Below, piece by piece: positions 12,801-28,540 of a stretch of DNA of 64,000 bases. Under the pieces are notes generated by a model. The model saw nothing but the letters and a program-made list of their open reading frames with translations. It was not told the origin of the DNA and made no database searches. This DNA is from Candidatus Sumerlaeota bacterium (GTDB lineage: Bacteria > Sumerlaeota > Sumerlaeia > MWCT01 > JAUWMI01). Location: contig JAUWMI010000014.1 of NCBI GenBank assembly GCA_030613245.1, positions 1-64,000 on the forward strand, read 5' to 3'. The first letter of the stretch is position 1. Every line of letters begins with the position of its first letter. The translations under genes and the position numbers were made by a program.

Positions 12801-15800
12801 AATCCTGAAGGCCCGGCAGGAACACTGCCGCCAGGCTTCTCGCATACAATTGCAATTCCTTTTCAGATCAATAGCAACCAACCCCATCTGCAAGTTACCT
12901 TTTCAGTCGACGTCAAGCTAGCAAACGATGTGGTGATTGACTGGCAGGCGCAGGAACCTCTGGTAAAGCCTGTGACTGCGCCGGCAAACTGGGACCAGGT
13001 ATGGCAGGCCCTTACCGCACAACTCGGCTCGACGTGGGGAGACTACCTGGGCGTATTGGCTGATGAGGCCGAGCGCATGCGCCGGGCAGGAAGGTTCGTA
13101 CCGTGCGTACGTGAGCTCTTTCTGCGGCTGTATCGGATAGCACTGGGCGAGTCGGACTATTTAATAGCGGGCAGATTAGTTTCAGCAACTTCGGGCTCGG
13201 GTTTACCTCTGGTGAAATTGGTGTTGCGTGAGGATTTGGACGAACCTTCGGTGATATTAGAAACGCAGGCAGAATCTCCCGACGGTCACTTTTGTTTCGA
13301 GCAGGTCCCACCCGGGACCTATGAACTGTTCGCTGAGGCTTACTTTTTCAATCCATCGCTGAAGGTGACAATCACCAGTGCGGACATCTTCGATCTTCAG
13401 GCCGCAGCCAACCCGTATGCGAGCGAGGAAGAAGAGGAAGAACCTGTGAAGCCTCCGCAATCGAGCCCAACCCTGGCGCGTGACTCCGACGGGCGAGTCT
13501 ACCTTGGCTGGTGCGAGGAGAATAGCGCCTGGGTGGCGAGTTTCGACGGGACGGACTGGAGCACCGTTCAGGAATCCTCTGATACTACTGCAACGGAAGT
13601 ACACCTGGCATACGCCCCCGACTTGGGTGATATCTCAACAGATCCCGGCCTGTTTATGGTGTACCGCGACGGCGTGAACAACGAGGCACATCTTCGTTAT
13701 GCGCTCGGCCTTCCTGATGTGAATGGCGACACCAGCTGGACCTCGAGCACTGCCGTGACCTCTGATGCTTACGGGGATCATGGCGCCCGAGCTGTGGCCT
13801 TGCCCGGTGGAGAGGCGCTGATCTCATGGTTGCAGCGCGATTGCTCTATCGAAGACGACGATGACCTCTACTTTCAGTCCGTAACCTATCCGGCAGGACT
13901 GACATTTCGTGAACCCGAAGGACTCTGGGGCGACGAAATGGATCTGATCTCGTTCCTGGAAGCCCAGGTCTCTACAGATACCTATTCTGTGAAATTTCGC
14001 ATTGCCAAAGGGAAGAAATTACCGGAGTGGGTTCCGTGCATAGGAGGCAAATACGGGTTTGAGGTAGAGGCCGCATATTCTCTGACAACGGATGGGTGCA
14101 AGGGACTCAAAGGCGAGGCCGCACTGGCGGTAGGGATCGACTTGTCCGACCGTCTCAAGTTCCAGGGTGCAGGGGCCATCTCGGCCGAATATATTACGGA
14201 TAAAAAGAAGTGCAAATACATTTTCGATAAAGGGGGCTTGTCCGGGTCGGTAGGTGGAGAAGGGAAAATTCCGGCGCCGCCCGGATGGGGTACGGGCAAC
14301 TATTGGCTTTTCAAGATCGAGTGGGGTGTGAAGGTTGGTGGAAACGTCGTGCTCGGCTTTACGTGGAAAGGCACTGGCTTTCCAGCATGGCCTAATGGCG
14401 GCTCATTCGATATCCAGGTTGCGTTTGGCCCCTATGGAGAGGCAAAAAGTAAGGGCGAGTGGGTAGAAGCAAATGTGCAAGGTCAGGGAGGTCTCACTTG
14501 GGGCATCGATTTCTCCAAGGGGCCGAAAGATCTCGAATGGACTTTCACGGTCCAGTTCGAAGTGAGGGCATTTCTGTTAAAAGCCGGTTGGCAGCGCACG
14601 TGGAAAGGGAAGGTCTTTGGCGGTAAGGCCGGATCACTGGACTTAGCCGCGATTCTCTTTTCCGACGATGTCATCACCTCAGAGTCCTTTACCCTCGAGG
14701 TTGATCCGCTCGTGGGCACGGGTAACCAGTATGAAGGCCTGCCAGTTTTAGGCGACATTTCCTCAAATGTGACTATGGATGGACAGCCCTCACTGGCGCG
14801 GTCCAGTACGGGCGAGATCTTGGTGGCATGGAAATATGATTCACCAACACCTGCGACTGAAATCGGCTCTGACATCCGCGTGGCTGCCTATAACGGGTCG
14901 AGCTTCGATTCTCCCGTGGTTTTGCATTCGGCAGCAGATTTCAACAGGCGACCTGCCCTGGCTTTTGATTCGAATAACAATCCGATCGTTGTCTATGCCT
15001 CAGCCAGCGGATCGGGAATCTCGCTGGCGAGTGATCCTTATGACATTCTGGACGCAGCGACTGACTCTGATATTTACTTTTGCCGAAGGGTCGGGAGTGT
15101 CTGGAGCGCGCCAGCTCCGCTGGCCACGCTTTCGGGTGGTGACGATGTGGTCAGCCTTGCTGCTGGAGCCGACGGAAAGATGACCGCTGTATGGGAGAAT
15201 ATCGACACCGACACCGGCGTTACTTCTATCATGGCTTCTGTTTGGAATGGTTCGTGGTGGAGCACTCCCGTGGTCGTTTCCTCGGAGTTGTTGTGCACCG
15301 AACCTGTCGTATCGTACGTCGGTAGCAAACCCATTGCGGTCTGGCTACAGGATGACGACGGAACGACTGAAACCGTGAATGATCAGAGGTTGCATTACTC
15401 GATATTGAATGGAAGCTGGGGAAGCTCGTCTCGAGTCCCATCGCTGGCAGCGGAGTTTGACGTTGCGAAGATCTCGCAATGGATGACGCGAGATTCTCTC
15501 CTGGCGGTATATGGTGCACCCACTATATACTCTTACTTCCCAGAGCCTCCTTCCGAGTGTTGTGAGGACAAGGAAGAGGAGAAGAAGAAAGAGCCAGATC
15601 CTCCCGAGCCGCCGGAGGATATCACGGAGCCGGGCGAACCGGAAGGCGAAGACGTCACCGAGGTAATCGTGCCTCTCGATCCCAACGAAAAAGTCGGCGT
15701 TGGGATTGGTCCACAGAATACCATAACGGCTTCCGATACCCTCATTTACACCGTTTACTTCGAGAATGTCTCGACGGCAACAGCTGCCGCACAACAAGTG

Positions 15801-17288
15801 GTGGTCACCGATGTGCTGGATCCCAACCTTGACTTTTCCTCTTTCCGCTTCCTGGAAGTGGGTATCGGCAGCCAGATCTTTCCCATCACCACGGAGGAGT
15901 TATCCTTCCATGAGCGCACCGATTGGCCGGATTGGCTAGGACGACTAAATATCTGGTGGGCTGACCTTCAGGGGTCGTTCAATCCCTTGCTGGGTCTTGT
16001 TGAATGGCGCCTAAGACTCCTGGACCCTGCAACTGGAGAATTGCCCGATGACGTCTTTGCCGGTCTGCTGCCTCCTAATGATGAAACGGGTCGTGGTGAG
16101 GGCCACGTGACGTTCAGCATACGCCCCAAGCACGACCTTAACGAAGGTACACTTATTACCAATTCCGCAACTATCTTCTTTGACACCCAGGCTCCTATCG
16201 TCACCAATACATGGACAAATATCGTTGTCGAACCAACGCCGACACCGACACCAACTCCGACCCCATCACCCACGCCCTGGCAGATTGTCTTTGACTTTAT
16301 AGCGGAAAGTGACGATTGGACCTCTGGTGGCGCGCCCATTGTCTATACTGTTCCTGATTTCCTCTGGGAAGCTGACTACCTGAAAATGATTTCATTAACG
16401 AATACGAATACGTTCGGCTACTGGCAGAGTCCACAGGATGCAGTCCCTGCGGATGCGGATTATCTCTATCGCGCACGGTTCAATGTCTCGACCGATATAA
16501 CGGCGAAATCGCTCATTCCCCAGATACGTCTTCGTGCAAACTCGCTGAACCTGCAGCAGTATGATGTGCTCTCGATCGAGAGCGCGGGTGACGGCGGCGC
16601 GTCTCCCGACGCGGCGGGCACGGATTATGATCTTTACTTTGTGCCGCCTGCAAATGATACGGCCGCTATGCTTGCATTCGACCTACTTAACTTCAATCCC
16701 AACGATGCGGCAACGGCAGAACTTTCACTGGATACGGTTACGGTTGATCGCTTTGCCCTGGATTCGCTCCCAACTCCGACCGTGGTTCAGGATTATACGT
16801 TCGAGTTGAGCCAGGACGGCTGGACAACGGGTGGCGCACCGATAGCGTTCAGTTCGCCGCAGTATATCTATTCTGCGGGTGCGCTTGATCTGCGGGCAAT
16901 AACCAACACGAATACGTTTGGCTTCTGGGGGAACCATCCGGCGGATATAACTATTGAGGCGGACAAACTCTATCGAGGAACATTTGAAATTCGCACAGAC
17001 TTGACCAACCCTGCGCTGGTTCCAGAGATGCGCTTGCGGTACAATACCGGGAATCTGCAAGCCTCGCACACATTTGGGATTTCAAGCAGCGGTGACGGAG
17101 CGAATTCCCCGGGCACCACAAACACGACATACGACCGACTATACTTTTTGCCTCCAGCGAACTGCGTTGGTGAAGACTTACTCGTTTCCTTTGACATACT
17201 CAACTTCAATCCCGGCGACGCTCCAACTGCGAGCCTGATCCTAGACCGGGCAATAATCGAGACCCTATCACCCCCAGGGTTACCCTGA
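9846..17288 (+). CDS. Giant secreted SBBP beta-propeller protein (2480 aa)
   Basis: The signal peptide is MNAIRYVAWIFILALMVSAV, cleaved near ALA at about residue 27. Residues ~55-255 match the domain that usually precedes SBBP propellers (FVENNGQWADDSLRFA). Residues ~257-706 hold seven SBBP blades of about 63 residues, each with LLWSTYLGG, a G-N-x-Y-V-T-G core, a DFPT motif and D-x-F-V-S-K-F, enough for one seven-bladed propeller. Next come Ig/TIG-like strands, a short carboxypeptidase-regulatory-like unit (~1130-1180) and BNR-like repeats (~1190-1900). A low-complexity acidic/proline stretch precedes a DUF11-like domain starting DPNEKVGVG (~1940), and a PTPTPTPTPTPSPTP linker lies at about 2130. 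Residues 2147-2480 are two copies of a ~160-residue domain also found in the 613-aa protein downstream. No PEP-CTERM or LPXTG signal is present. Probably extracellular or surface-bound; the ligand is unknown. Confidence 0.85.
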   Translation: MNAIRYVAWIFILALMVSAVAGSALADALSSPDVRQGTTSEEPVQATGLLAKSPAPFVENNGQWADDSLRFAMRRAGANVFIYDNTLALQLLKRNDKTVQSATVNARFIGANEVCPVGIAPSKAVFHYYRGPKAQWRSSVSAFQNVVYRDLYDGIDLFIKKNPEGLLKLEFHLSPGSDWRKIVIAYEGMDSLLIDDEGQLVIATPLGTLIDAAPVIYQDIEGKQVSVEGQFRLLDSSTCGFEVTGAWDPAYSLVIDPDLAWSTYHGGTDMDGGKGIAADGVGNIYVTGYTSSFDFPTLEAYDTTYNASHDAFVSKFSPSGELLWSTYLGGSSTDNGYSIAVSGDGNIYVTGVTYSANFPTPGGNDATHNGGQDVFVSKFNPSGELLWSTYLGGTSNEIGFGIAADSTGNAYVTGYTLSANFPTTRGWDLSYNDGGDAFVSKFSSEGALLWSTYLGGSNSDLGDGIAADGFGNVYVSGQTVSSEFPTRGGWDTSHNGSSDAFVSKFSVDGVLLWSTYLGGSDGEGGVYAKCDLAVDGAGNAIVASTTSSYDFPTPGGYDTSFNGGSDIFVSKFSPSGALLWSTYLGGSNTDEGLSIAVENWSGDVFVMGRTNSPDFPTPGGYDTSFNGVFDDVCLARFTASGELVWGTYLGGSQAEPWPQVHNRGIASDGLGNVYVTGMTTSDDFPTQGGYDTIYDGPSEVFITKFSGFPTSVRTPQLLQLGETVEVEVEPFPFYDFQLDLASGQANHLLVRLTPLEGTGSWLLLGRKGELPALGIFDWSSEELTPQGAVELLIPTPGAGSFYFSVHYSAWSFQTGRFQLECLSVDRYLSDVNPREAGNAGTVTVTVDGLGFAEPMSFELRRAGFGPTESQSSSELSPTEWLAIFDLAGVTPGLRSLAAIWSGAQEEVLSDVLEVIQGIGAKLECWLEAPQFVRPYRKYTLRLRYENNGDADIKAPLFIISSNPPAEMGSPCGDSTSIGTIQLLGINPEGPAGTLPPGFSHTIAIPFQINSNQPHLQVTFSVDVKLANDVVIDWQAQEPLVKPVTAPANWDQVWQALTAQLGSTWGDYLGVLADEAERMRRAGRFVPCVRELFLRLYRIALGESDYLIAGRLVSATSGSGLPLVKLVLREDLDEPSVILETQAESPDGHFCFEQVPPGTYELFAEAYFFNPSLKVTITSADIFDLQAAANPYASEEEEEEPVKPPQSSPTLARDSDGRVYLGWCEENSAWVASFDGTDWSTVQESSDTTATEVHLAYAPDLGDISTDPGLFMVYRDGVNNEAHLRYALGLPDVNGDTSWTSSTAVTSDAYGDHGARAVALPGGEALISWLQRDCSIEDDDDLYFQSVTYPAGLTFREPEGLWGDEMDLISFLEAQVSTDTYSVKFRIAKGKKLPEWVPCIGGKYGFEVEAAYSLTTDGCKGLKGEAALAVGIDLSDRLKFQGAGAISAEYITDKKKCKYIFDKGGLSGSVGGEGKIPAPPGWGTGNYWLFKIEWGVKVGGNVVLGFTWKGTGFPAWPNGGSFDIQVAFGPYGEAKSKGEWVEANVQGQGGLTWGIDFSKGPKDLEWTFTVQFEVRAFLLKAGWQRTWKGKVFGGKAGSLDLAAILFSDDVITSESFTLEVDPLVGTGNQYEGLPVLGDISSNVTMDGQPSLARSSTGEILVAWKYDSPTPATEIGSDIRVAAYNGSSFDSPVVLHSAADFNRRPALAFDSNNNPIVVYASASGSGISLASDPYDILDAATDSDIYFCRRVGSVWSAPAPLATLSGGDDVVSLAAGADGKMTAVWENIDTDTGVTSIMASVWNGSWWSTPVVVSSELLCTEPVVSYVGSKPIAVWLQDDDGTTETVNDQRLHYSILNGSWGSSSRVPSLAAEFDVAKISQWMTRDSLLAVYGAPTIYSYFPEPPSECCEDKEEEKKKEPDPPEPPEDITEPGEPEGEDVTEVIVPLDPNEKVGVGIGPQNTITASDTLIYTVYFENVSTATAAAQQVVVTDVLDPNLDFSSFRFLEVGIGSQIFPITTEELSFHERTDWPDWLGRLNIWWADLQGSFNPLLGLVEWRLRLLDPATGELPDDVFAGLLPPNDETGRGEGHVTFSIRPKHDLNEGTLITNSATIFFDTQAPIVTNTWTNIVVEPTPTPTPTPTPSPTPWQIVFDFIAESDDWTSGGAPIVYTVPDFLWEADYLKMISLTNTNTFGYWQSPQDAVPADADYLYRARFNVSTDITAKSLIPQIRLRANSLNLQQYDVLSIESAGDGGASPDAAGTDYDLYFVPPANDTAAMLAFDLLNFNPNDAATAELSLDTVTVDRFALDSLPTPTVVQDYTFELSQDGWTTGGAPIAFSSPQYIYSAGALDLRAITNTNTFGFWGNHPADITIEADKLYRGTFEIRTDLTNPALVPEMRLRYNTGNLQASHTFGISSSGDGANSPGTTNTTYDRLYFLPPANCVGEDLLVSFDILNFNPGDAPTASLILDRAIIETLSPPGLP

Positions 17289-17310
17289 TCCGCCTTCGGC
17301 GGACAGGTTT
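17289..17310 (+). terminator. Candidate intrinsic terminator after the giant gene
   Basis: TCCGCC (17289-17294), a TTC loop and GGCGGA (17298-17303) form a 6-bp perfect stem directly after the TGA stop, followed by CAGGTTTT. The T-run is short, so it is a modest terminator. A class A hairpin follows a few bases later. Confidence 0.5.
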
Positions 17311-17314
17311 TGCC

Positions 17315-17342
17315 GTAGGGGCACGCTGCAGCGGGCCCCTAC
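17315..17342. repeat. Class A 28-base hairpin
   Basis: Rims GTAGGGGC and GCCCCTAC enclose the core ACGCTGCAGCGG, which is imperfectly self-complementary. Lies downstream of the giant gene and may act with the preceding hairpin as a transcription end. Confidence 0.75.
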
Positions 17343-17842
17343 GATTTTGCGCTACTTTAATTCCTGCATGGGCGCGTTTGCGCGCAATCTTTCCCCTTTT
17401 CATCTCACCAAGAATTTGCACAGGCTCTTCTGCAAACCGGCGCGAATGCAAGTCCTAATTGAAAATCAGGAAACTATAGATTCTGTTTGACAATGATTTT
17501 GCTTACTATTAGAAAAGGTGGATACAAAAATTATACGCTATCACGATCTGTAGGAGTAACTGCGTTGTCACTTACATGGCTGGTCAGTAAGTGATGCACT
17601 TTGCTACCGGGCTTTACATCTTCGAATAGTCCAAACCAGAGAAGGTGAAAGTTGGAAAACTCGTTGTGTAAAGTCGGTTAATTCGTTTGTCCGTTAGTCG
17701 GTTGGTCAGTTAGTCAGTTTAGAGAAAGGTGGTGAGGCGTGTATTGTTGGAGTGCAAAGAGTCCTTGTGGGATTCGCACGAAAACAATACGAGATGCAAA
17801 AGTGCACGTTTCATACTATTCTAACAAAAAAGGAGTGATCAG
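17343..17842. other. Intergenic leader of the beta-helix gene array
   Basis: 500 bases without a gene. A TTGACA hexamer is present at 17487-17492 but no good -10 box at standard spacing, so it is not called a promoter. The 8-base-period GTCMGTTR repeat lies at 17689-17720. It ends with AAGGAG before the ATG at 17843. Confidence 0.5.
17689..17720 (+). repeat. 8-base-period tandem repeat GTCMGTTR, copy 1
   Basis: Units read GTCCGTTA, GTCGGTTG, GTCAGTTA, GTCAGTTT. The phase is outside any gene. The same octamer array recurs at 18736, 20511 and, inverted, at 46695. Confidence 0.7.
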
Positions 17843-18730
17843 ATGATGAAGCGACGTATCACAACAGTAGCTTGTATTGTTAGCTTATGTCTTTTACTGG
17901 GCGCGGTTGCATGGGCTGGTGATGGGCAGATTGACATTGCTGAGATTCCTTACACCATTTCCAGCTCCGGCTCGTATATTGTAGTTGACGATCTGTCCAC
18001 AACCGCGACTAACACCAACGGCATTACCATTGACGCTGACAATGTCACGCTGGACCTGAACGGGCATGCGATCATCGGTCCTGGCAAAGCAGCAGGCACG
18101 AGTGGCGCTGGTATTGATGTAGCCGGTACCCAGTATAACATCGCCATCCGCAATGGCACGGTGCGCGATTGGCGGTGGGATGGGGTGGATGCCGGCAGTG
18201 CCAACAACAGCCAGTTTGAAGCCCTGCGCTGCTACGACAACGGAGATGACGGTTTGGCTGGTGGCCCTGGAAGCACTGTAACCGGCAATACCTGCTATAA
18301 CAACGGGGATGACGGCATCTTGGGATACTATGGCAGCACGGTCACCGGAAATAGTTGCAAAGACAATGCATCGGAAGGCATTCAAACGGGCAATGGAGTA
18401 ACGGTCAGCGGCAATACCTGCTATAGTAACGATGGTGACGGCATTCAAACGGCCGGTGCCTGCACGGTCAGCGGCAATACCTGCCAGTACAACACCGGCG
18501 ACGGCATTCAAACGTCCGATGGCTGCACGCTTAGCGGCAATACCTGCATGCAAAACACAGGCGATGGCATCCATGGGGTCTATGGCGGTAGTGTCACCGG
18601 TAATACCTGCTATAGCAACACAGGCGATGGAATCGAGGCCCTCCGATGCATTATCGCGGAGAACTGCTGCTATAATAATGGAACGAACTATAACCTGACT
18701 TCGTGCACGTCGGTTAATAACCATCCGTAG
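17843..18730 (+). CDS. Secreted right-handed beta-helix protein, paralog 1 (295 aa)
   Basis: First of four tandem paralogs. The signal peptide resembles MKRRITTVACIVSLCLLLG, cleaved after AWA; the neighbours start at the second ATG (17846), and AGGAG lies 8 nt before the first. The N-terminal cap (~28-85) carries AEIPYTISSSGSYIVVDDLS and GITIDADNVTLDLNGHA. From ~90 onward there are about eight parallel beta-helix (PbH1/NosD-like) coils of 20-24 residues with the pattern V-x-G-N-T-C-Y-x-N-x-G-D-G-I. Cysteine at the coil position after GNT and the Asn ladder are conserved. No catalytic residues typical of pectate lyase or pectin lyase stand out. It is likely an exported structural or carbohydrate-contacting protein. 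It ends with an AENCCYNNGTNYNLT cap shared with paralog 2. The function is unknown. Confidence 0.82.
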   Translation: MMKRRITTVACIVSLCLLLGAVAWAGDGQIDIAEIPYTISSSGSYIVVDDLSTTATNTNGITIDADNVTLDLNGHAIIGPGKAAGTSGAGIDVAGTQYNIAIRNGTVRDWRWDGVDAGSANNSQFEALRCYDNGDDGLAGGPGSTVTGNTCYNNGDDGILGYYGSTVTGNSCKDNASEGIQTGNGVTVSGNTCYSNDGDGIQTAGACTVSGNTCQYNTGDGIQTSDGCTLSGNTCMQNTGDGIHGVYGGSVTGNTCYSNTGDGIEALRCIIAENCCYNNGTNYNLTSCTSVNNHP

Positions 18731-18735
18731 GACCA

Positions 18736-18821
18736 TTAGTCAGTTGATCAGTTAGTCAGTTAAAAACAACAACGGACAAACGGGCAAACGGATAAACGGA
18801 CACAACGGACAAACGAATAGA
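18736..18821 (+). repeat. 8-base-period tandem repeat GTCMGTTR, copy 2, plus related GGACAAACG array
   Basis: GTCAGTTG, ATCAGTTA, GTCAGTTA are followed by a second short-period stretch of AACGGACAAACGGGCAAACG type. Both lie between beta-helix paralogs 1 and 2. These look like one repeat and a partially inverted, diverged copy (GTTTGTCCGTT), giving potential for a long hairpin. Confidence 0.6.
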
Positions 18822-18945
18822 AAGGAGGGGAGTGGGTGGATTTCGGGAGTGCGGAACGTCTTGTTTTCGTCTCGGTTTAACACGGTGTAAGATCGGGAAA
18901 CGTTGAATCCCGAAGTAAAGTGAAAAAGAAAAGGAGGGTGAAACT

Positions 18946-20511
18946 ATGAAGCGACGTATCACAACAGTAGCTTGTATTATTGGCGTGTGTCTTTTGCTGG
19001 GCGCAGCGGCCTGGGCTGGTGATGGGCAGATTGACATTGCTGAGATTCCGTACACCATCTCCAGCTCCGGCTCGTATATTGTAGTTGACGATCTCTCCAC
19101 GACCGCGACAAACACTGCTGGCATTACCATTGACGCCGACAATGTCACGCTGGACCTGAACGGGCATGCAATCATTGGCCCTGGCAAAGCAGCAGGTTCT
19201 ACTGGCGATGGTATCTATGTCGACGGTGCCCAATATAACATTGCCATCCGAAATGGCACCGTGCGCGACTGGCGGGGGTATGGGGTTTATGGCAATGACG
19301 CCCGGAACAGTCAGTTTGAATCCCTGCGCTGCTATAACAATGGTGGCTACGGCCTCGGTGCTGGCTCTGGCAGCAAGGTCATCGGCAATACCTGTCGTCA
19401 AAACGGAGGCAGAGGCATCTACACAGGCGAATGCTGTACGGTCACCGGAAATACCAGCGAATACAACGGAAATGACGGAATCTATACTGGCAGTGGCTGC
19501 ACAGTCACCGGCAATAGTTGCTGCTCAAACGAAGATGATGGTATCCAGGCAAACTTCAGCACGGTCAGCGGCAATATGTGCTACTCAAACACAGGCGACG
19601 GCATACGGGTTGCTTATAATTGCCGGGTAGTAGATAATACTTGCAATAACAACGGCTACATGACAGGAGACGGTGCGGGCATCCTTGCTACTGGTTATGA
19701 CAATCGCATTACTAATAATCATTGTACGGGTAATGACCGGGGGCTGGACCTTGACGCAGCTAACAATATCGTCTCAGGTAATACCTTGATTAGAAACACC
19801 ACGCCGCTGGATGCGGTTGGAGGCAATCAGCTGGATATTCTTATCAGCGAGCTGCCGTACACCATCTCCCAGCCCGGCATGTATCGCCTGAGCGGTGACC
19901 TTTCGCTCTCTGCCATTGACACACATGGCATCACCATTGACGCCGACGACGTGACGCTTGACCTGAACGGGCATTCATTAACTGGCCCTGGCAAAACAAC
20001 AGGCGCGATTGGCCATGGCATCTATGTCTTTGGTACCCAATATAACATCGCCATCCGCAATGGCAGCGTGCGCGACTGGCGGCTGGATGGGGTGAATGCC
20101 GACGGCGCCTACAACAGCCAGTTTGAAGCCTTGCGATGCTACAACAACGGAGATGACGGCATCTCTCTAACCAATGGTTGCACGGTCACCGGCAATACTT
20201 GCTATAATAACGGAGATGACGGGATCTATAATAGCTCAGGTCCTCTTACGGTGAGCGGCAATACCTGCCGCGACAACGGTGGCGACGGCATCTCTACAGG
20301 CTATGGCTGTACAGTTAGCGGCAACGCCTGCCGTGGCAACGGAGCAGACGGCATCCAATCGAGCTATAGTTCGGTCAGGGGCAATGCCTGTTACAACAAT
20401 ACAGGCGATGGGATCCAGGCCACCGACTCCCTTGTCGCGGAAAACTGCTGTATGGCAAATGGAACCAACTTGAATCTGACTACGTGCACGGCGGTCAATA
20501 ACAAGTCGTAG
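18946..20511 (+). CDS. Secreted right-handed beta-helix protein, paralog 2 (521 aa, two-domain)
   Basis: Signal peptide MKRRITTVACIIGVCLLLG, strong ribosome site AAAGGAGGGTGAAACT just before the ATG. It has two consecutive cap-plus-helix domains: the first cap begins near residue 28 (IDIAEIPYTISSSGSY), the second near 298 (LDILISELPYTISQPGMY). Each is followed by GITIDAD and VTLDLNGH and then PbH1 coils with V-x-G-N-T-C cores. Between the domains is ITNNHCTGNDRGLDLDA, which matches the end of paralogs 3 and 4. The first ~340 residues are nearly the same as paralog 4, and the C-terminal cap resembles paralog 1, so the gene appears mosaic. No enzyme motif is seen. Likely a secreted or surface protein. 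Confidence 0.82.
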   Translation: MKRRITTVACIIGVCLLLGAAAWAGDGQIDIAEIPYTISSSGSYIVVDDLSTTATNTAGITIDADNVTLDLNGHAIIGPGKAAGSTGDGIYVDGAQYNIAIRNGTVRDWRGYGVYGNDARNSQFESLRCYNNGGYGLGAGSGSKVIGNTCRQNGGRGIYTGECCTVTGNTSEYNGNDGIYTGSGCTVTGNSCCSNEDDGIQANFSTVSGNMCYSNTGDGIRVAYNCRVVDNTCNNNGYMTGDGAGILATGYDNRITNNHCTGNDRGLDLDAANNIVSGNTLIRNTTPLDAVGGNQLDILISELPYTISQPGMYRLSGDLSLSAIDTHGITIDADDVTLDLNGHSLTGPGKTTGAIGHGIYVFGTQYNIAIRNGSVRDWRLDGVNADGAYNSQFEALRCYNNGDDGISLTNGCTVTGNTCYNNGDDGIYNSSGPLTVSGNTCRDNGGDGISTGYGCTVSGNACRGNGADGIQSSYSSVRGNACYNNTGDGIQATDSLVAENCCMANGTNLNLTTCTAVNNKS

Positions 20512-20560
20512 TCCGTTAGTCCGTTGGTCAGTTAGTCCGTTAGACCGTTAGTCAGTTTAG
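20511..20560 (+). repeat. 8-base-period tandem repeat GTCMGTTR, copy 3
   Basis: Units GTCCGTTA, GTCCGTTG, GTCAGTTA, GTCCGTTA, GACCGTTA, GTCAGTTT, directly after the stop codon of paralog 2. It is the longest and cleanest array of this octamer in the window. Confidence 0.75.
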
Positions 20561-20565
20561 CTCGT

Positions 20566-20781
20566 ATTCTAACTGAGAAGACTGAAGACTAGAGACTTTA
20601 GACCAGAGACGAAGATTACATACGGGATTAACAGTATGAAAAGACTGTCACAGTGTTACGAGGGTTAATTAAATGTGTAGAAAAGTCTTGAGTCTAACGT
20701 CTATAGTCCAAGATCTAGAAAGGAGGAGAGTGGGGTGGTGGAACGTCGAAGTAAAGTGACAAAGAAAAGGAGGGTGGAACT
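20566..20781 (+). repeat. Intergenic cassette, copy 1 (216 bp) between beta-helix paralogs 2 and 3
   Basis: Begins ATTCTAACTGAGAAGACTG, contains AGAGTGTTACGAGGGTTAATT-like sequence and ends with the AAAGGAGGGTGGAACT ribosome site. Copy 2 (21894-22109) has exactly the same length and near-identical sequence, copy 3 (23963-24130) a shorter 3' end. In this copy the ATTCTAACTGAG start is noncoding, while in copies 2 and 3 it contains the stop codon of the preceding gene. Confidence 0.85.
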
Positions 20782-21900
20782 ATGAACCGACGTATCACAA
20801 CAGTAGCTTGTATTATTGGCGTGTGTCTTTTGCTGGGCGCAGCGGTCTGGGCTGGTGATGGGCAGATTGACATTGCTGAGATTCCGTACACCATCTCCAG
20901 CTCCGGCTCGTATATTGTGGTTGATGACCTGTCCACAACCCAGACTAATATGCATGGCATCACTATTGACGCGGACAATGTGACGCTGGACCTGAACGGG
21001 CATACTCTAACGGGGCCTGGCAAGACGGCGGGTTCGACTGGAAGTGGTATTACAGGTATTTCCCGAGACAATATCACTATTATTAATGGGGTAATCAGGG
21101 AATTCCGCGCAGCGGGAATGAATTTCAATAATGGAAAAAACTTGCGCGTGGAAAATGTGATGGTGGAAAATTGTGGCGGTACAGGAATTCACGGCTACAT
21201 CAACGTCATCGTCCGCAACTGTGTTCTTTATCAAAACGGAAGCTATGGAATCCTTGCGAATGGGCACCTCGTGGCTGAAGGAAATATCTGTGAAGACAAC
21301 GGGTCCCATGGCATTGGCGCAAGTAGTAGTGGCTCAGTTATCGTCAACAATAGTTGCAAGAATAATACTGGCCAAGGGATTAGCGCTGGTAGTTCATCGG
21401 TGGTCTCGAACAACGCCTGCTACAACAACGGAATGGCGGGCATCTCTGCAAGCGGTGGTAGTACGGTCAGCGGCAATACCTGTAACTTTAACGGTGACGA
21501 CGGCATCTCAGGAAGTGCGAGTACGATCAGCGGCAATTCCTGTAACTCAAACGATGACGACGGGATCTATGGAGGTGGTAACTCTACGGTCAGTGGCAAT
21601 ACCTGCTATGGCAACACCGGCGACGGCATAGAAGCTTGGCATGATTGCATAGTTGTAGATAACACTTGCACCAGAAACGGATTCCAAGCAGGAGACGGCG
21701 CTGGCATCTTTGTTCAGAGCTCAAGTGGTAATGACAATTGCATTGAGCATAACCTGGTTACTGATAACGACCGGGGGATTGACGTAGATGGCAGCGGCAA
21801 CTATATTGCCAGCAATCGCGCCAGTGGAAATACCACCAACTACGATATTGTTGGTGGCAACACTACGGGCGCAGGCGATTTGGCGAATGTTTCATTCTAA
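20782..21900 (+). CDS. Secreted right-handed beta-helix protein, paralog 3 (372 aa)
   Basis: Starts MNRRITTVACIIGVCLLLG with signal peptidase site after VWA. It has a single cap domain (residues ~27-90) that includes GITIDADNVTLDLNGHT, then about ten PbH1 coils. Residues ~90-180 use a different coil sequence (ISRDNITIINGVIREF, VENVMVENCGG) that resembles generic NosD-like helices more than the paralogs. The last 130 codons (nt 21511-21900) are almost identical to the last 130 codons of paralog 4, down to the stop codon. The C-terminal cap is HNLVTDNDRGIDVDGSGNY and a glycine-rich tail. This indicates recent gene conversion or duplication. Function unknown; exported. Confidence 0.82.
   Translation: MNRRITTVACIIGVCLLLGAAVWAGDGQIDIAEIPYTISSSGSYIVVDDLSTTQTNMHGITIDADNVTLDLNGHTLTGPGKTAGSTGSGITGISRDNITIINGVIREFRAAGMNFNNGKNLRVENVMVENCGGTGIHGYINVIVRNCVLYQNGSYGILANGHLVAEGNICEDNGSHGIGASSSGSVIVNNSCKNNTGQGISAGSSSVVSNNACYNNGMAGISASGGSTVSGNTCNFNGDDGISGSASTISGNSCNSNDDDGIYGGGNSTVSGNTCYGNTGDGIEAWHDCIVVDNTCTRNGFQAGDGAGIFVQSSSGNDNCIEHNLVTDNDRGIDVDGSGNYIASNRASGNTTNYDIVGGNTTGAGDLANVSF
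21511..21900 (+). repeat. Duplicated 390-bp 3' block, copy in paralog 3
   Basis: From GGAAGTGCGAGTACGAT to the stop codon this block matches 23580-23969 in paralog 4 with equal length and only scattered substitutions. Together with the following cassette the repeated stretch is about 600 bp. Confidence 0.85.
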
Positions 21901-22109
21901 CTGAGAAGACTGAAGACCAGAGACTATAGACTTGAGACCAAGATGCCACACGGGATTAACAGCATGAAGAAGCTGTCAGAGTGTTACGAGGGTTAATTAA
22001 ATGCGTAGAAAAGTCTCAAGTCTAACGTCTATAGTCCAAGGTCTAGAAAGGAGGAGAGTGGGGTGGTGGAACTGCGAAGTAAAGTGACAAAGAAAAGGAG
22101 GATGGGATT
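21894..22109 (+). repeat. Intergenic cassette, copy 2 (216 bp) between beta-helix paralogs 3 and 4
   Basis: Same length as copy 1 and near-identical, from ATTCTAACTGAGAAGACTG to the ATG of paralog 4. The TAA stop of paralog 3 is inside its first bases. It contains the ribosome site AAAGGAGGATGGGATT. Confidence 0.85.
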
Positions 22110-23969
22110 ATGAAGCGACGTATCACAACACTAGCTTGTATTGTTAGCTTGTTTCTCTTGCTGGGCACGGTTGCATGGGCTGGTGATGGGCAGATTGACA
22201 TCGCCGAGATTCCTTACACCATTTCCAGCTCCGGTTCGTATATTGTAGTTGATGACCTGACCACAACCGCGACTGACACGAATGGCATTACTATCGACGC
22301 TGACAATGTCACGCTGGACCTGAATGGACATGCAATCATTGGCGCTGGCAAAGCAGCAGGCACGAGCGGCAGTGGTATCTATGTCGACGGTAACCAATAT
22401 AACATCGCCATCCGCAATGGCACTGTGCGCGACTGGCGGGGGTATGGGGTTTATGCCAATGACGCCCGGAACAGTCAGTTTGAAGCCCTGCGCTGCTATA
22501 ACAATGGTGGCTTCGGCCTCGGTGCTGGCTCTGGCAGCAAGATCATCGGCAATACCTGTAGTAACAACGGAGGCAGGGGCATCTATGCAAGCGGTCGCTG
22601 TACGGTCACCGGCAATACCTGTAGCTTCAATGACGACGGCATCTATGCCGGCACTGGCTGCACAGTCACCGGCAATAGTAGCTGCTCAAACGGAGATGAT
22701 GGCATCCAAACAAACTTCAGCACGCTCACCGGAAATATGTGCTTCGGAAACACAGGCGACGGCATAGAGGTTGATTATAATTGCCTAGTGGTAGATAATA
22801 TTTGCAATAACAACGGCGACGGTGTAGGAGACGGTGCGGGCATCCTTGCTACAGGTTATTACAATCGCATTACCAATAATCATTGTACGGGTAATGATCG
22901 CGGATTAGACCTTGACGCGGTTAACAATATCGTCTCAGGCAATACCTTGCAAGGAAACACGACCCCGCTGGATGCGGTGGCTGGCAACCAGCTGGATATA
23001 CTCATCAGCGAACTGCCTTACACAATCTCGCAGCCCGGCATGTATCGCCTCAGTGGTGACCTTTCGCTCTCTACCACTAACACAAATGGCATCACTATTG
23101 ACGCTGACAATGTGACGCTGGACCTGAATGGACATGCCTTAATTGGCCCTGGCAAAGCAGCAGGTTCTACTGGCGATGGTATCTATGTCGACGGTCCCCA
23201 ATATAACATCGCCATCCGCAATGGCACGGTGCGCGACTGGCGGCTGTCTGGGATTAATGCTTCCTTCGCCGCCAATAGTCAGTTTGAGGCTCTCCGATGC
23301 TATAATAATGGAAACTACGGCATCAGTACATTGGTTAGCTGTACAGTCCGCGGCAATACCTGTTGCGATAACGGAGGGTGGGGCATCTTTGCAGCCAATG
23401 GCAGTACGGTCAGCGGCAATACCTGCTATGAGAACGGTGCAAGGGGCATCACCACGGGCAGTGGCTGTGCAATCGCCGGCAATGTCTGCTACGACAACAC
23501 AACCGACGGCATCTATGCAAGCGGTGGTAGTACGGTCAGCGGCAATACCTGTAGTAACAACGGGGGCGACGGTATCTTAGGAAGTGCGAGTACGATAAGC
23601 GGAAATACCTGTAACTCAAACGATGACGACGGGATCTATGGAGGGGGTAACTCTACGGTCAGTGGCAATACCTGCTATGGCAACACCGGCGACGGCATAG
23701 AAGCTTGGCATGATTGCATTGTTGTAGATAACACTTGCACCAGAAACGGATTCCTAGCAGGAGATGGCGCTGGCATCTTTGTTAAGAGCTCAAGTGGTAA
23801 TGACAATTGCATTGAGCATAACCGGGTTACTGATAACGACCGGGGGATTGACGTAGATGGCAGCGGCAACTATATTGCCAGCAATCGCGCCAGTGGAAAT
23901 ACCACCAACTACGATATTCTTGGTGGCAACACTACGGGCGCAGGCGATTTGGCGAATGTTTCATTCTAA
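22110..23969 (+). CDS. Secreted right-handed beta-helix protein, paralog 4 (619 aa, two-domain)
   Basis: Signal peptide MKRRITTLACIVSLFLLLG. Two cap-plus-helix domains as in paralog 2: caps near residues 28 and 296, each with GITIDADNVTLDLNGHA, and linked by ITNNHCTGNDRGLDLDA. The first ~340 residues match paralog 2, the last 130 match paralog 3, so the gene reads as a recombinant of the two. Coils have the V-S/T-G-N-T-C-x-x-N-x-G-x-G-I pattern, with DDGI or GDGI turns. The coil cysteines form a probable ladder on one face. No lyase or hydrolase catalytic triad was recognised. The protein is expected outside the cell; an adhesin or structural role is a guess. Confidence 0.82.
   Translation: MKRRITTLACIVSLFLLLGTVAWAGDGQIDIAEIPYTISSSGSYIVVDDLTTTATDTNGITIDADNVTLDLNGHAIIGAGKAAGTSGSGIYVDGNQYNIAIRNGTVRDWRGYGVYANDARNSQFEALRCYNNGGFGLGAGSGSKIIGNTCSNNGGRGIYASGRCTVTGNTCSFNDDGIYAGTGCTVTGNSSCSNGDDGIQTNFSTLTGNMCFGNTGDGIEVDYNCLVVDNICNNNGDGVGDGAGILATGYYNRITNNHCTGNDRGLDLDAVNNIVSGNTLQGNTTPLDAVAGNQLDILISELPYTISQPGMYRLSGDLSLSTTNTNGITIDADNVTLDLNGHALIGPGKAAGSTGDGIYVDGPQYNIAIRNGTVRDWRLSGINASFAANSQFEALRCYNNGNYGISTLVSCTVRGNTCCDNGGWGIFAANGSTVSGNTCYENGARGITTGSGCAIAGNVCYDNTTDGIYASGGSTVSGNTCSNNGGDGILGSASTISGNTCNSNDDDGIYGGGNSTVSGNTCYGNTGDGIEAWHDCIVVDNTCTRNGFLAGDGAGIFVKSSSGNDNCIEHNRVTDNDRGIDVDGSGNYIASNRASGNTTNYDILGGNTTGAGDLANVSF
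23580..23969 (+). repeat. Duplicated 390-bp 3' block, copy in paralog 4
   Basis: Partner of 21511-21900. Both end at the same TAA stop, and the following intergenic cassette is also shared. Confidence 0.85.
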
Positions 23970-24130
23970 CTGAGAAGACTGAAGACCAGAGACTATAGAC
24001 CAGAGACGAAGATGGCACACGGGATTAACAGTATGAGGAAGCTGCCAGAGTGTTACGAGGGTTAATTAAATGCGTAGAAAAGTCTCAAGTCTAACGTCTA
24101 TAGTCCAAGGTCTAGAAAGGAGATAAAGCT
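23963..24130 (+). repeat. Intergenic cassette, copy 3 (168 bp)
   Basis: Same start as copies 1 and 2 but its 3' end differs: after GGTCTAGAAAGGAG it goes directly to the ATG of the 613-aa protein gene. The unrelated downstream gene therefore has inherited the leader and ribosome site of the array. Confidence 0.8.
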
Positions 24131-25972
24131 ATGAGAAATTATCGACGATCGCTAGTTCTTGCATTTTGGCTCCTTGCTGCGCTGGTGTGCCTTAGTATCG
24201 GGCCGCCGGGGGTTGCTGAGGCGTCGTTCCTGTTCTCCCATAACGAAGATGCCTCGTACGCAACCCTGGTGCCTGCAGACCATGAGCTAGTGAATACGGA
24301 TGGGGTGGGCGCGTATGCACTATATGGCTCGCCTTTAACCAGCTTGCTCCCCGCACAGGTGAATATCGATGCCGTGGATTTAATAGAAGAAGACCTGCTG
24401 GTCTTCTCGCTTTCAGAAGATGTAAAGATCGGCGGCACGGTTTACGCAGATGAAGACCTCTTGGTCTGGAATGGAGTGAGCATCAGCCTGCTGTGGGACG
24501 GCTCAGCCAACGGCCTGCCAGCCAGGGTGAATCTGGATGCGGTAGACGTAATTGCTATCTCTCCCTTCGAGTTCTCATTCTCTCTTGAAGAAGATGCAAG
24601 ATTGCCCGTGGTAGGCATGGTAGCTGATGAGGACATGGTGCACTTTACCACAGGCAGCGGGTTCTCTGCCAACCTTGATTTCGACGGCTCAGCTCAAGGG
24701 GTACCAGCTCAGGTAGATGTCAATGCCTTCAGTCGCAATACTGATACCGAGTGGATTTTCTCCTTCAATTCAGCAGCCAGGTTGAATTCTACGCTCTATG
24801 ATGATGGAGACCTGATAGCATACAATACATCAGGCGGGACGTTTAGCCTCTATTTTGACTCGAGCGCGCAGAGTATTCCCGAGCAGGTGGAACTCGATGC
24901 CATGGCCTTCCCTACACCAGCCGTAACACCGACGCCCACGGCAACGCCAGTTACATTCGTCAAGGAATATACGTTTGATTCAAACATGGAAGGCTGGGGC
25001 TTCCTGCCGCTGGCTGGTTCTGGGTTCTCCGGGGCATCGTCCAGTTATAGTGGTGGCCGGATAAGCGTGAGTTCAGCAAATGACGGCACGCACCGCGTAG
25101 GGCTCTGGAACAGCCTGACGGAGCTTGCATATGTGGCGGATAATGTGTACCGGGCTACGTACGAGGTCTCCTCGGATCGGGCAAGTGCGGCTCAGAATCC
25201 GCAGTTTCGTATGCGATGGCTCCAGGATCAATCGCTCGAGTCAGCAACGCAGGTGGTGAATGCCTCAGGCTCGTACAGCAACTCCTTGCCCACAGATCCG
25301 ACAACGAAAGATTATACCTGCTACTTTGCGCCTGTGGTGAGCGGCAGTCTGGGTGTGGCTTTTGATATGCTTGATTTTAACGCAGCGCAGTATGGAACGC
25401 ACTATGTAGATACAGTGACAGTGGAGCGGTTCCCGTTTCCGGCACTTGGCACATTGGTCAAGACGTACGCCAGTGGCGGCGAATTTTCCAACTGGGGATT
25501 CACGACCAATGTTGGCTTCGGTCCAGTTACTTCCGGAGGAGCAGGCACGGGCACGCTCACGATTACGGCTAGCACCTCTGCAGATGCCAATTATGGATGG
25601 TGGCAGTCAAGTGGTTCGGCAAACGAGCTTACGTATGTAGCGGATAAGCTCTATCGTGCGACCTACGCCTTGAGGTGCGCGAGTGACGTGGCACGCAACA
25701 CCATGCCACAGGTCAGACTGCGTTGCCAGAATGATGACGCACAGATGACGGCGACCATGGAGCTCAACAGCCAGGGCGCTGGCCCAGGAGCAATGCCAAC
25801 GACCGGTGGTACCGACTACGACGTCTACTTCGAGACGCCAACGCTGCCCGGGTCACCGTCAACATCAGAGGATGGATTCATTGTGACGCTTGACCTGCTC
25901 GACTTCAGCTCGGCGCAGGGAGGAACCATCTACATGGACAGTGTTATGGTTGATTATCTCACGATTCCTTAA
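24131..25972 (+). CDS. Secreted repeat protein sharing C-terminal domains with the giant protein (613 aa)
   Basis: Signal peptide about residues 1-33, cleaved near AEA. Residues ~34-265 hold about four related units of ~55 residues, each ending in a motif like WDGSANGLPARVNLDAVDV or FDGSAQGVPAQVDVNA. These resemble repeats seen in metagenomic secreted proteins but no named family is assigned. A short PTPAVTPTPTATP linker follows at about 265-275. Residues ~277-435 and ~442-613 are two copies of a domain with an aromatic-rich N-terminal strand (YTFDSNMEGWGF), G-x-W/F, an A-D-x-L/V-Y-R-A-T-Y core and a C-terminal F-D-x-L-D-F strand. The same domain pair ends the 2480-aa protein. The gene is probably co-expressed with the beta-helix array, whose leader cassette precedes it. 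Ligand unknown. Confidence 0.78.
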   Translation: MRNYRRSLVLAFWLLAALVCLSIGPPGVAEASFLFSHNEDASYATLVPADHELVNTDGVGAYALYGSPLTSLLPAQVNIDAVDLIEEDLLVFSLSEDVKIGGTVYADEDLLVWNGVSISLLWDGSANGLPARVNLDAVDVIAISPFEFSFSLEEDARLPVVGMVADEDMVHFTTGSGFSANLDFDGSAQGVPAQVDVNAFSRNTDTEWIFSFNSAARLNSTLYDDGDLIAYNTSGGTFSLYFDSSAQSIPEQVELDAMAFPTPAVTPTPTATPVTFVKEYTFDSNMEGWGFLPLAGSGFSGASSSYSGGRISVSSANDGTHRVGLWNSLTELAYVADNVYRATYEVSSDRASAAQNPQFRMRWLQDQSLESATQVVNASGSYSNSLPTDPTTKDYTCYFAPVVSGSLGVAFDMLDFNAAQYGTHYVDTVTVERFPFPALGTLVKTYASGGEFSNWGFTTNVGFGPVTSGGAGTGTLTITASTSADANYGWWQSSGSANELTYVADKLYRATYALRCASDVARNTMPQVRLRCQNDDAQMTATMELNSQGAGPGAMPTTGGTDYDVYFETPTLPGSPSTSEDGFIVTLDLLDFSSAQGGTIYMDSVMVDYLTIP

Positions 25973-26414
25973 TTGATGTACTCGACATCAATTAGGCAAA
26001 CCACGGAATACTGAGTAGGGGCGTATTGCAATACGCCCCTACTTAGCCTTGCTGAAAAAAAACTGGATACAATGATCATGTCAGGTAAAAGATACACTTT
26101 ACATCTTTTGCCTGCTTTTTTTATGCCTGTTTCTCAAATGAGTTAGCCTTTCAGGGAGTAAAAAGGAAAGACAGTCCCCACGCACAAGTCGCATTTTCAA
26201 CCCCACCTTGATTTTCTCCCGTAAGGGGAGAGAATAATTAGCGTCAAAGCCTGCTTTTTATGTAAAGGCGTGGTTCCTATACAGAAGATCAAAGATAGGA
26301 AATTCGGCAAGGAGCGGGATTTGTTATGCAAGTCTGAAAATACAGGAGTTGCATATGTATTAAGCCTTTATTCTGCTAACCGCTCAGAAAAATAGCCAAA
26401 GGTAAAAATAATTG
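25973..26414. other. Intergenic region between the surface island and the GntR-ABC operon
   Basis: Holds a perfect class A palindrome at 26015-26042 and a weaker hairpin TTCTCCC / GGGGAGA at 26214-26232. It is otherwise AT-rich with no recognisable gene. Confidence 0.6.
26015..26042. repeat. Class A 28-base hairpin, perfect palindrome
   Basis: Rims GTAGGGGC / GCCCCTAC with core GTATTGCAATAC; all 14 base pairs are complementary. The same core occurs at 32111 and 39685 and, with changes, at 31181 and 31347. Confidence 0.9.
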
Positions 26415-26451
26415 TTGACAGGAAATGTCGCATTGTCCTAGTATTACTAGG
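26415..26451 (+). promoter_or_regulatory. Promoter overlapped by a perfect palindromic operator
   Basis: TTGACA at 26415-26420 and TAGTAT at 26439-26444 (18-bp spacer) make a plausible sigma-70 promoter. The 15-bp perfect palindrome CCTAGTATTACTAGG (26437-26451) covers the -10 box. It is about 90 bp upstream of the GntR gene, so autorepression by that regulator is likely but inferred. Confidence 0.65.
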
Positions 26452-26543
26452 TCTTTTAAATTTAGCCAAAAACGTAAAATAAAACACCTTTAAAATAGCC
26501 TGAGTTGCCACGGCTTTAGGCCATATACAGGAGCAAAGCAAAT

Positions 26544-26948
26544 ATGTTTCTTCAAATTGACATATTCTTGCCGGTCCCCGTTTATCAACAGATCATTACC
26601 CAGGTTAAATATGCTATCGCACGTGCTGCACTTAAACCCGGGGACCAATTACCTACGGTAAGGGAAGTTGCCGCTGCCATCAGAGTCAATCGTAACACTG
26701 TTTCCCGTGCCTATTCAGATTTGGAGCGTGAAGGAATTATTGTGGGGCGACCCGGTCAGGGCTCGTTCGTCTCTGATAGTGCACCTGCCTTGCCCGCCAA
26801 GGAGGCCCGCTCCCTTCTGGGTTCTGCTTTTGATGAAGTACTGGCAAAGGCATATCATTTTCGCATGAATCGCAAAGACATCGAGGATATTTTTAAGGAT
26901 CGCTTGAGCAAGATCAACTTACCTGAAACAAAATCTAACAAGAGGTAA
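26544..26948 (+). CDS. GntR-family (YtrA subfamily) transcriptional regulator
   Basis: 134 residues, a typical YtrA-subfamily size: an N-terminal winged helix-turn-helix (about 10-75) with PVYQQIITQVKYAIARA, LKPGDQLPTVREVAAAI and NRNTVSRAYSDLEREGI, then a short helical dimerisation tail without an effector domain. AGGAG lies 10 nt before the ATG. YtrA-type repressors usually control the ABC transporter genes that follow them, as here: the ATPase starts 5 nt after the stop. The perfect palindrome at 26437-26451 is the obvious operator candidate. The inducer is unknown; in Bacillus and related examples such systems answer to cell-wall-active antibiotics. Confidence 0.92.
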   Translation: MFLQIDIFLPVPVYQQIITQVKYAIARAALKPGDQLPTVREVAAAIRVNRNTVSRAYSDLEREGIIVGRPGQGSFVSDSAPALPAKEARSLLGSAFDEVLAKAYHFRMNRKDIEDIFKDRLSKINLPETKSNKR

Positions 26949-26953
26949 GCGCG

Positions 26954-27850
26954 ATGACTGAATACGCAATTGAAACGAAAGGCCTCGGTCGGCGTTACGG
27001 GCGCGAGTGGGCAGTGAGGGAACTTGATTTAAAAGTGCGTAGAGGAGCGGTATATGGATTGTTGGGACTCAACGGTGCCGGTAAGACGACTACCTTTCGT
27101 CTATTAATGGGACTTATTCGAAGAACAGAAGGCGAGACACAGGTTCTGGGGGTTGACCCTGCCCGTGATGGTGTAGCACTGAAACGCCGCGTAGGATACG
27201 TGGCGGAGACGCATAATTTTTACGAATGGATGACCGTGGATGAGATTTTTCGGTTCGTCGCGCATTATCGCAAGGATAGCTGGGACACGAAGTGTGAGCA
27301 ATCCCTTCGAAAGCGGTTTCGACTCGATGGTTCAAAGAAGTTGAAGGCTTTGAGTAAAGGGATGCGGGCAAAAGTGAGTTTGACCCTCGCGCTTGCTTTT
27401 CATCCTGAAGTGCTCATGTTGGACGAGCCGGTAGGAGGGCTTGATCCAATAGCACGGCGTGAATTCGTTCAGGGTGTCCTTGCGGAATACCAAGAGCCGG
27501 AGCGGACTATCTTAATCTCCTCGCATCTCGTCAATGAAATCTCAGGCCTCGTAGACCACGTAGGCATTCTGCACGAAGGCAGCCTCATCAGGGACTGTTC
27601 CAGCGAGGAATTTCTCTCCAGTGTGAAGAGGCTTCGCATCGTGTTTGATGGTGAGCCCCCGAAGCAATTCAGCGTTGAGGGGCTCGTGCGCTATCGCGTG
27701 GAAGGGCATGAGGGCCTTGCCGTTACTTTTGACTACCGCAAGAACGAAATGGAGAAACGTATCATTTCAGCGGGTGCACGTGAAGTGGAGGTAATAAATC
27801 TAAATCTCGAAGAGGCGTTCATTGAATTTGTCGGGGGACGCGAAGAATGA
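26954..27850 (+). CDS. ABC transporter ATP-binding protein (YtrB/EcsA-like)
   Basis: 298 residues. Walker A is GLNGAGKTT near residue 40, the signature loop is a degenerate LSKGMRAKVSL near 135, Walker B is VLMLDEPVGGLDP near 158 and the switch region is ISSHLVNEI. The LSKGM form of the signature is common in ABC-2 exporters of the CcmA/YtrB/EcsA type. The C-terminal ~80 residues form the usual accessory domain of such ATPases. It overlaps the permease gene by four bases (ATGA), so translation is coupled. It powers export or mechanotransmission by the downstream membrane proteins; the substrate is unknown. Confidence 0.92.
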   Translation: MTEYAIETKGLGRRYGREWAVRELDLKVRRGAVYGLLGLNGAGKTTTFRLLMGLIRRTEGETQVLGVDPARDGVALKRRVGYVAETHNFYEWMTVDEIFRFVAHYRKDSWDTKCEQSLRKRFRLDGSKKLKALSKGMRAKVSLTLALAFHPEVLMLDEPVGGLDPIARREFVQGVLAEYQEPERTILISSHLVNEISGLVDHVGILHEGSLIRDCSSEEFLSSVKRLRIVFDGEPPKQFSVEGLVRYRVEGHEGLAVTFDYRKNEMEKRIISAGAREVEVINLNLEEAFIEFVGGREE

Positions 27851-28536
27851 AGATCTACAGTGCAAACACCATATGGAAGCGCCAATTGCGGACTCTTATA
27901 CAGTCTGCTGCTACTTTTGCAGCACTTACGCTCATTGTCGGGTTGCTTGACATTGTAAAGAACCTGCTGTTTGGAAGGAGCGTTGTTGGAGAATTCTTTA
28001 AGTCATGCACAACTGGAGGTACAATTATTCTAGCGGTTCAGATATTTATTTCGGGCCTTTTGCTGGGCGCGGAAGAAGAGGAGAACCAAACACACAGTTT
28101 TGTATTGCGTCTGCCCGTGAGCAAAGTGCGATGGGTTGCAGAGCGGCTTCTGGGGGTGATTATAGGCCTGATAATTTGTTTCCTCCTCTTGCTCTGCGAT
28201 GCAATAATTCTAGGGCTGTATTTGAAGATACCTGGCTTCTGGAATGGCCTATGGAACAGTATTACTACTGTATTTACATTCCCAAACCTTGCGCTGGGGT
28301 TTTCGTATTTCTGGATATCCGCCTCTTGCGCTGCGTGGACTAAAAAGGCATTACCTTCTGCGATCATATCAGTTGGAACAATATTCCTGATGTTAATGGT
28401 GCTTGATGAACTTGTGATGCATACGCGATTCTCTATTCTACACCCATTTCAGGGAATAGCTTTTGGATTCTTTATCATTGCTTTTGTTTTTATGGGATTT
28501 TTCTTCTTTGCTATTTCGCGAAGGGAAGGAACATGA
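27847..28536 (+). CDS. ABC-2 type permease-like membrane protein
   Basis: 229 residues with about six hydrophobic segments and a motif after the second one typical of ABC-2 permeases controlled by GntR/YtrA: EEENQTHSFVLRLPVSKVRW. This resembles the E-x(n)-G-x(n)-L-P-V/I pattern by which such permeases contact the ATPase. Start overlaps the ATPase stop. It is probably one half of the membrane part; the 253-aa protein at 30292 would be the other. Substrate unknown. Confidence 0.8.
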   Translation: MKIYSANTIWKRQLRTLIQSAATFAALTLIVGLLDIVKNLLFGRSVVGEFFKSCTTGGTIILAVQIFISGLLLGAEEEENQTHSFVLRLPVSKVRWVAERLLGVIIGLIICFLLLLCDAIILGLYLKIPGFWNGLWNSITTVFTFPNLALGFSYFWISASCAAWTKKALPSAIISVGTIFLMLMVLDELVMHTRFSILHPFQGIAFGFFIIAFVFMGFFFFAISRREGT

Positions 28537-28540
28537 AATC

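Follow-up and report, generated by a model that had tools for sequence, protein, structure and literature searches.

Probable tandem expansion, with segment conversion, of genes for predicted secreted beta-helix proteins beside a conserved partner gene in a Candidatus Sumerlaeota genome

The chlamydial polymorphic membrane proteins are families of secreted beta-helix proteins encoded in gene clusters. Wang and Chen (2018, PMC6053082) described long-lasting concerted evolution among prokaryotes. Here, we analyzed a head-to-tail row of four genes for predicted secreted right-handed beta-helix proteins (Pfam PF13229/PF05048) at positions 17843-23969 of the window, that is, of the whole 64,000-nucleotide stretch studied, which forms the start of contig C92 in a Candidatus Sumerlaeota MAG (4.29 Mb, 97 contigs). 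The host is poorly known and uncultured, and the main Sumerlaeota genome paper mentions neither beta-helix, polysaccharide lyase, nor pectate. The nearest genomes compared were from the same order; the relatives searched included no member of its genus or family. We consider it likely that the row arose at an old beta-helix/partner locus, where genes for secreted right-handed parallel beta-helix proteins expanded in tandem, with conversion of segments. The array is a case of ordinary gene-family evolution, and the gene that follows the row is a long-standing partner rather than an outsider. The repeat pattern described for 17843-24130 by an initial annotation is real, and its coordinates and lengths hold. 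From the wider interpretation, tandem duplication and segment exchange are supported, while a recent chimeric origin of the fourth gene, an unrelated 613-aa gene, and antigen or ligand diversification are not.

The beta-helix array and its partner gene

The four genes, all on the forward strand, comprise g1 (17843..18730), which encodes a secreted beta-helix protein of 295 aa with one cap, coils, and a type I tail (AENCC..NGTN.NLT.CT.VNN); g2 (18946..20511), encoding a two-domain (cap-coils-cap-coils) beta-helix protein of 521 aa with a type I tail; the mosaic beta-helix gene g3 (20782..21900, 372 aa); and g4 (22110..23969), encoding a two-domain beta-helix protein of 619 aa with a type II tail. 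All four proteins have signal-peptide-like N-termini and beta-helix domains, matching PF13229 with 72-116 bits (cut-off 25.9; E 1e-20 to 1e-34) and the NCBIfam parallel beta-helix repeat TIGR03804 above its curated cut-offs. NosD (PF05048) matched g2, g3, and g4, a match that does not imply copper binding here. As in these families, the proteins are made of coils, here of 21 residues with invariant Asn and Gly-Ile positions, an invariance in part required by the search pattern itself (Asn at 6 and 11, Gly-Ile at 15-16). Position 8 is Cys in 42 of 46 such coils. The family models differ in that they do not describe the two-cap architecture or the type I and II tails.

An AlphaFold2 model of g4 (pLDDT 89.6) has regular short strands along its whole length, and this model and its Foldseek matches, which are beta-helix proteins, predict a three-strand coil fold. 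The best fold matches in the PDB were the beta-helices of alginate C5-epimerases (AlgE4, AlgG) and PL6 alginate lyases, at 10-16% identity and TM ~0.5 or less. The array proteins have no detectable sequence homology to solved members of these enzymes (a profile run against the sequences in PDB had no hit at E 0.01), and PDB likewise contained no sequence relative of the partner; the likeness is one of fold only, and no enzymatic activity is claimed.

The row is followed by the partner gene (24131..25972, forward strand), whose 613-aa product has a signal-peptide-like N-terminus, a repeated N-terminal motif of ~55 aa, and a tandem C-terminal domain, and is without a Pfam or NCBIfam match. This gene had been called unrelated, but its family is a conserved neighbor of beta-helix genes, found beside one at five of six loci, including one in another family of the class. 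Homologues adjoin beta-helix genes on contig C13 of the same genome and at G001:C158, G003:C286, and G006:C383; in G003, the order is reversed, with the partner-like gene preceding the beta-helix gene. The contig of the sixth locus (G010:C2) had no beta-helix match. Structure prediction for the partner reached pLDDT 55.6, and its fold matches were therefore left unused.

The partner ends in copies of a ~157-residue domain that has no Pfam match. A profile search found at least 90 copies in the genome; of 41 genomes searched, 18 had matches, and every one of these belongs to the class. In 20 of 20 proteins sampled, 4-8 residues separate the end of the domain from the stop codon. Tandem copies lie at 16278-17285 and about 24950-25969 of the window, and at 12506-13513 and 14989-15990 of L045. 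The domain looks like a sorting or anchoring domain, and the partner thus points to a widespread C-terminal domain that may be a protein-sorting signal of the class; our literature search found no paper joining Sumerlaeota with C-terminal sorting of surface proteins. The same tandem domain forms the C-terminus of a 2480-aa protein (9846-17288 of the window) with SBBP beta-propeller repeats, DUF7948, and DUF7619.

A mosaic gene and the hairpin cassettes of the row

From nucleotide comparisons, the clearest mosaic in the row is g3, not g4. The 5' part of g3, up to 20918, corresponds to g2: the tract 20751-20918 has 4 differences in 168 nt (2.4%), after which the two genes are 24% different. A second tract, common to g3 and g4 (21510..22053, forward strand), spans the type II tail and the hairpin spacer, with 17 differences in 544 nt (3.1%) after 19% upstream. 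These tracts end abruptly, as 0 of 5000 permutations in a change-point test reached either the g3-g2 or the g3-g4 value. The last 130 codons reported as common to g3 and g4 are indeed 97.4% identical (10 of 390 nt differ), and the tracts in g3 support the part of the proposed unequal crossover and conversion that concerns tandem duplication and segment exchange among neighbors. Copying of the g3 middle (21046-21429) from another gene in the genome was considered and rejected, with the best other substantial match at 38% amino acid identity.

The g4 gene had instead been read as a recent chimera of g2 and g3. Its two-domain type II architecture recurs beside the partner in a second array of the same genome and at L049, which argues against such an origin. 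The sharing with g2, put at ~340 residues, exists and aligns over ~490 codons at ~82% nucleotide identity, but a dS of 0.41 for this pair indicates an old divergence. Cap 1 of g4 is 86.9% identical to that of g2 and 85.7% to that of gene A of the second array; being about equally close to both, it requires no recent exchange with g2.

The spacers carry repeats of two kinds (all coordinates on the forward strand). The first, IG1 (18731..18945), contains octamer repeats, direct then inverted (GTTAGTCA.. / ..AACGGACA), and the long form of the beta-helix leader, and resembles the A-B spacer of the second array. A GTCCGTTA-like octamer tandem repeat (20512..20565; array match 20509-20557) lies 3' of the g2 stop codon. 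It is followed by cassette copy 1 (20566..20781), with an inverted heptamer hairpin (AGACNNN/GTCTNNN) and the short beta-helix leader. Copy 2 (21894..22109) consists of the hairpin spacer and the g4 leader, and copy 3 (23963..24130) of the g4-partner hairpin spacer, which ends at the partner ribosome-binding site (AAAGGAG). As first described, ATTCTAACTGAG opens the blocks at 20566, 21894, and 23963, which extend 216, 216, and 168 nt up to the ATG that follows; the motif holds the stop codon after g3 and g4 and is noncoding in IG2, where it lies 55 nt past the g2 stop. The equal 216-nt length is likewise correct, but "near-identical" overstates the likeness, with 22 differences in 216 nt between IG2 and IG3 (90%); IG3 and IG4 have 7 differences in the first 160 nt (96%).

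Searches of the 4.29-Mb genome found no further cassette copy except a 35-nt leader piece at 18911. A dispersed mobile element was ruled out, as the three full copies genome-wide are all in the array. Copies 1 and 2 run on into the ~48-nt beta-helix leader, and copy 3 ends right before the point where that leader would come and runs into the partner ribosome-binding site, contrary to the suggestion that the 613-aa gene took over the leader of the array. The locus shows that a spacer in common with a neighbor need not make that neighbor an intruder. The point of divergence between copies is TAGAAAGGAG, a string also present in IG1. Given that the partner family neighbors beta-helix genes at five of the six loci, the cassette with its hairpin is most likely part of the beta-helix/partner junction, copied along with the last gene; on the simplest reading, the hairpin between type II gene and partner was duplicated with the gene and joined to the beta-helix leader at the short homology TAGAAAGGAG. 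Hairpin z values were -3.6 and -4.1 for two window copies and a weak -1.9 for the copy preceding the partner; partner-junction hairpins of different sequence gave -4.3 (second array) and -5.4 (L049). The left edge of copy 1 corresponds to the final codon and stop codon of a type II gene; judging from this one junction, the cassette after g2 may be what remains of a type II gene since deleted.

No known RNA family was found in the window at gathering thresholds, and promoter and terminator scans gave little above shuffled expectation. Octamer tandem arrays (GTYNGTTN; 17685-17719, 18771-18815, and 20509-20557 in the window) had 10 matches in this genome (G000), 15 in G001, and 0 in 39 other genomes, and a reversed control pattern had none in G000 or G001. 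Some of these arrays are inverted pairs able to form hairpins. In G001, an 84-nt element accompanies some octamer arrays (L073, L077, L080, L081); it has 41 matches there, against zero in four further order genomes, the genome studied here among them. Heptamer arrays (AGACNNN) occur in the window at 20579-20610, 21907-21938, and 23976-24007 and also on C26, C40, and C50 of G000, with none in four order relatives.

Mosaics in metagenomic sequence could also stem from similar copies wrongly joined in assembly. The MAG is fragmented (97 contigs) and exact repeats extend up to 94 nt; this length, being that of the longest repeat, limits the risk of misassembly without removing it. The junctions sit in sequence with distinguishing differences, and the second array agrees in its tail types and their order, which makes an assembly artefact highly improbable.

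Two arrays in one genome

Besides a homologue of the 613-aa gene, the second array, on contig C13, has two beta-helix genes, A and B; the two loci, both in one genome, serve as controls for each other. Gene A equals g2 in architecture and tail, and g4 equals gene B and the single gene of L049 (another family of the order) in architecture and position, these two each lying immediately upstream of a homologue of the partner. The order of type I and type II tails is the same at the two loci, and a type-I-like tail is found in G006; both tails therefore seem to predate the loci.

Cap types 1 and 2 are separate in the tree (support of 100 for the cap 2 clade), and both types occur in order relatives. 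In either type, the window genes form one group and the C13 genes another. For the signal peptide with cap 1 and for cap 2, an AU test rejected the alternative trees (by-position tree, p 0.0002 and 0.017, respectively); the helix 1 end segment was less clear, with the by-position tree rejected (p 0.015) and a third tree not rejected (p 0.20). Values of dS came to 0.41 and 0.45 for comparisons within loci and to 0.61 and 0.66 for those between them; the N-terminal part of the partner gave 0.87. Paralogues within a locus are thus closer than positional counterparts between loci. Caps that group by locus, with tail types and gene order common to both loci, form what appears in these sequences to be a signature of concerted evolution, and conversion within loci explains the low within-locus dS together with the shared tails and order.

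The main rival is independent tandem duplication at each locus after copying of the locus, with little cap conversion and a single exchange of tails between loci. Clustering of caps by locus would be expected equally under this scenario, which explains the cap trees as well. It sits poorly with type I and II tails in the same order at both loci and with the type-I-like tail in G006, and g3 requires segment exchange regardless; overall, we regard it as unlikely. Under the preferred reading of tandem expansion with conversion, the earlier state would have been a type I gene, a type II gene, a hairpin spacer, and the partner. The type II gene would then have been duplicated along with its 3' hairpin spacer, and later gene conversion would have homogenized the 5' ends and caps inside each locus and given g3 its g2-like 5' end and g4-like 3' end. 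A type II gene lost by deletion would probably have left the cassette after g2 as its scar. We infer the direction of copying from parsimony.

Selection, putative function, and comparison with known systems

Estimates of dN/dS were 0.36 for g2-g4 and 0.1-0.2 for caps, and reached 0.57-0.88 in coil blocks; by the counting method in 60-codon blocks, no segment exceeded 1 (highest block 0.88), a scale at which single sites could still do so. The most variable coil positions are 9, 10, 17, 19, and 20. This variability fits relaxed constraint on exposed positions, and diversifying selection is not demonstrated. The initial annotation proposed shuffling of modular coils by unequal crossover and gene conversion as a possible route to antigen or ligand diversity. 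In an active system of this kind, the array would continually make beta-helix variants with altered antigens or ligand specificity. The three-part mosaic of g3, the higher dN/dS of coil blocks, and the variable coil positions are in line with this. Against it, dN/dS is never above 1, the exchanged tracts are 2-3% diverged and hence not fresh, cap conversion homogenizes rather than diversifies, and inspection of the open reading frames at 14000-30000 revealed no dedicated recombinase beside the array. Such an active shuffling system is very unlikely, and terms such as "recent," "ongoing," and "diversity-generating" find no support. We also see as improbable a scenario in which the array supplies the variable half, facing ligands, of an undescribed surface system in Sumerlaeota, with beta-helix rods held at the surface by a partner bearing a lineage-wide tandem C-terminal sorting domain and module exchange between neighbors giving binding variants.

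As a tentative function, the array proteins may be exported to build beta-helix rods at the cell surface or outside the cell, probably with a carbohydrate-binding or structural role. These rods could be held at the surface with the partner via its tandem C-terminal domain, and the hairpin just before the partner ribosome-binding site would probably set the ratio of the two products.

Compared with the chlamydial polymorphic membrane proteins, the likeness is in kind only, as Pfam matched no autotransporter barrel here. For an uncultured phylum, the locus provides a detailed example of concerted evolution that affects segments of surface-protein genes. As in the case described by Wang and Chen (PMC6053082), neighboring paralogues are more alike than their counterparts elsewhere; unlike in that case, two loci of one genome are compared here rather than different species, and segments rather than whole genes are affected.
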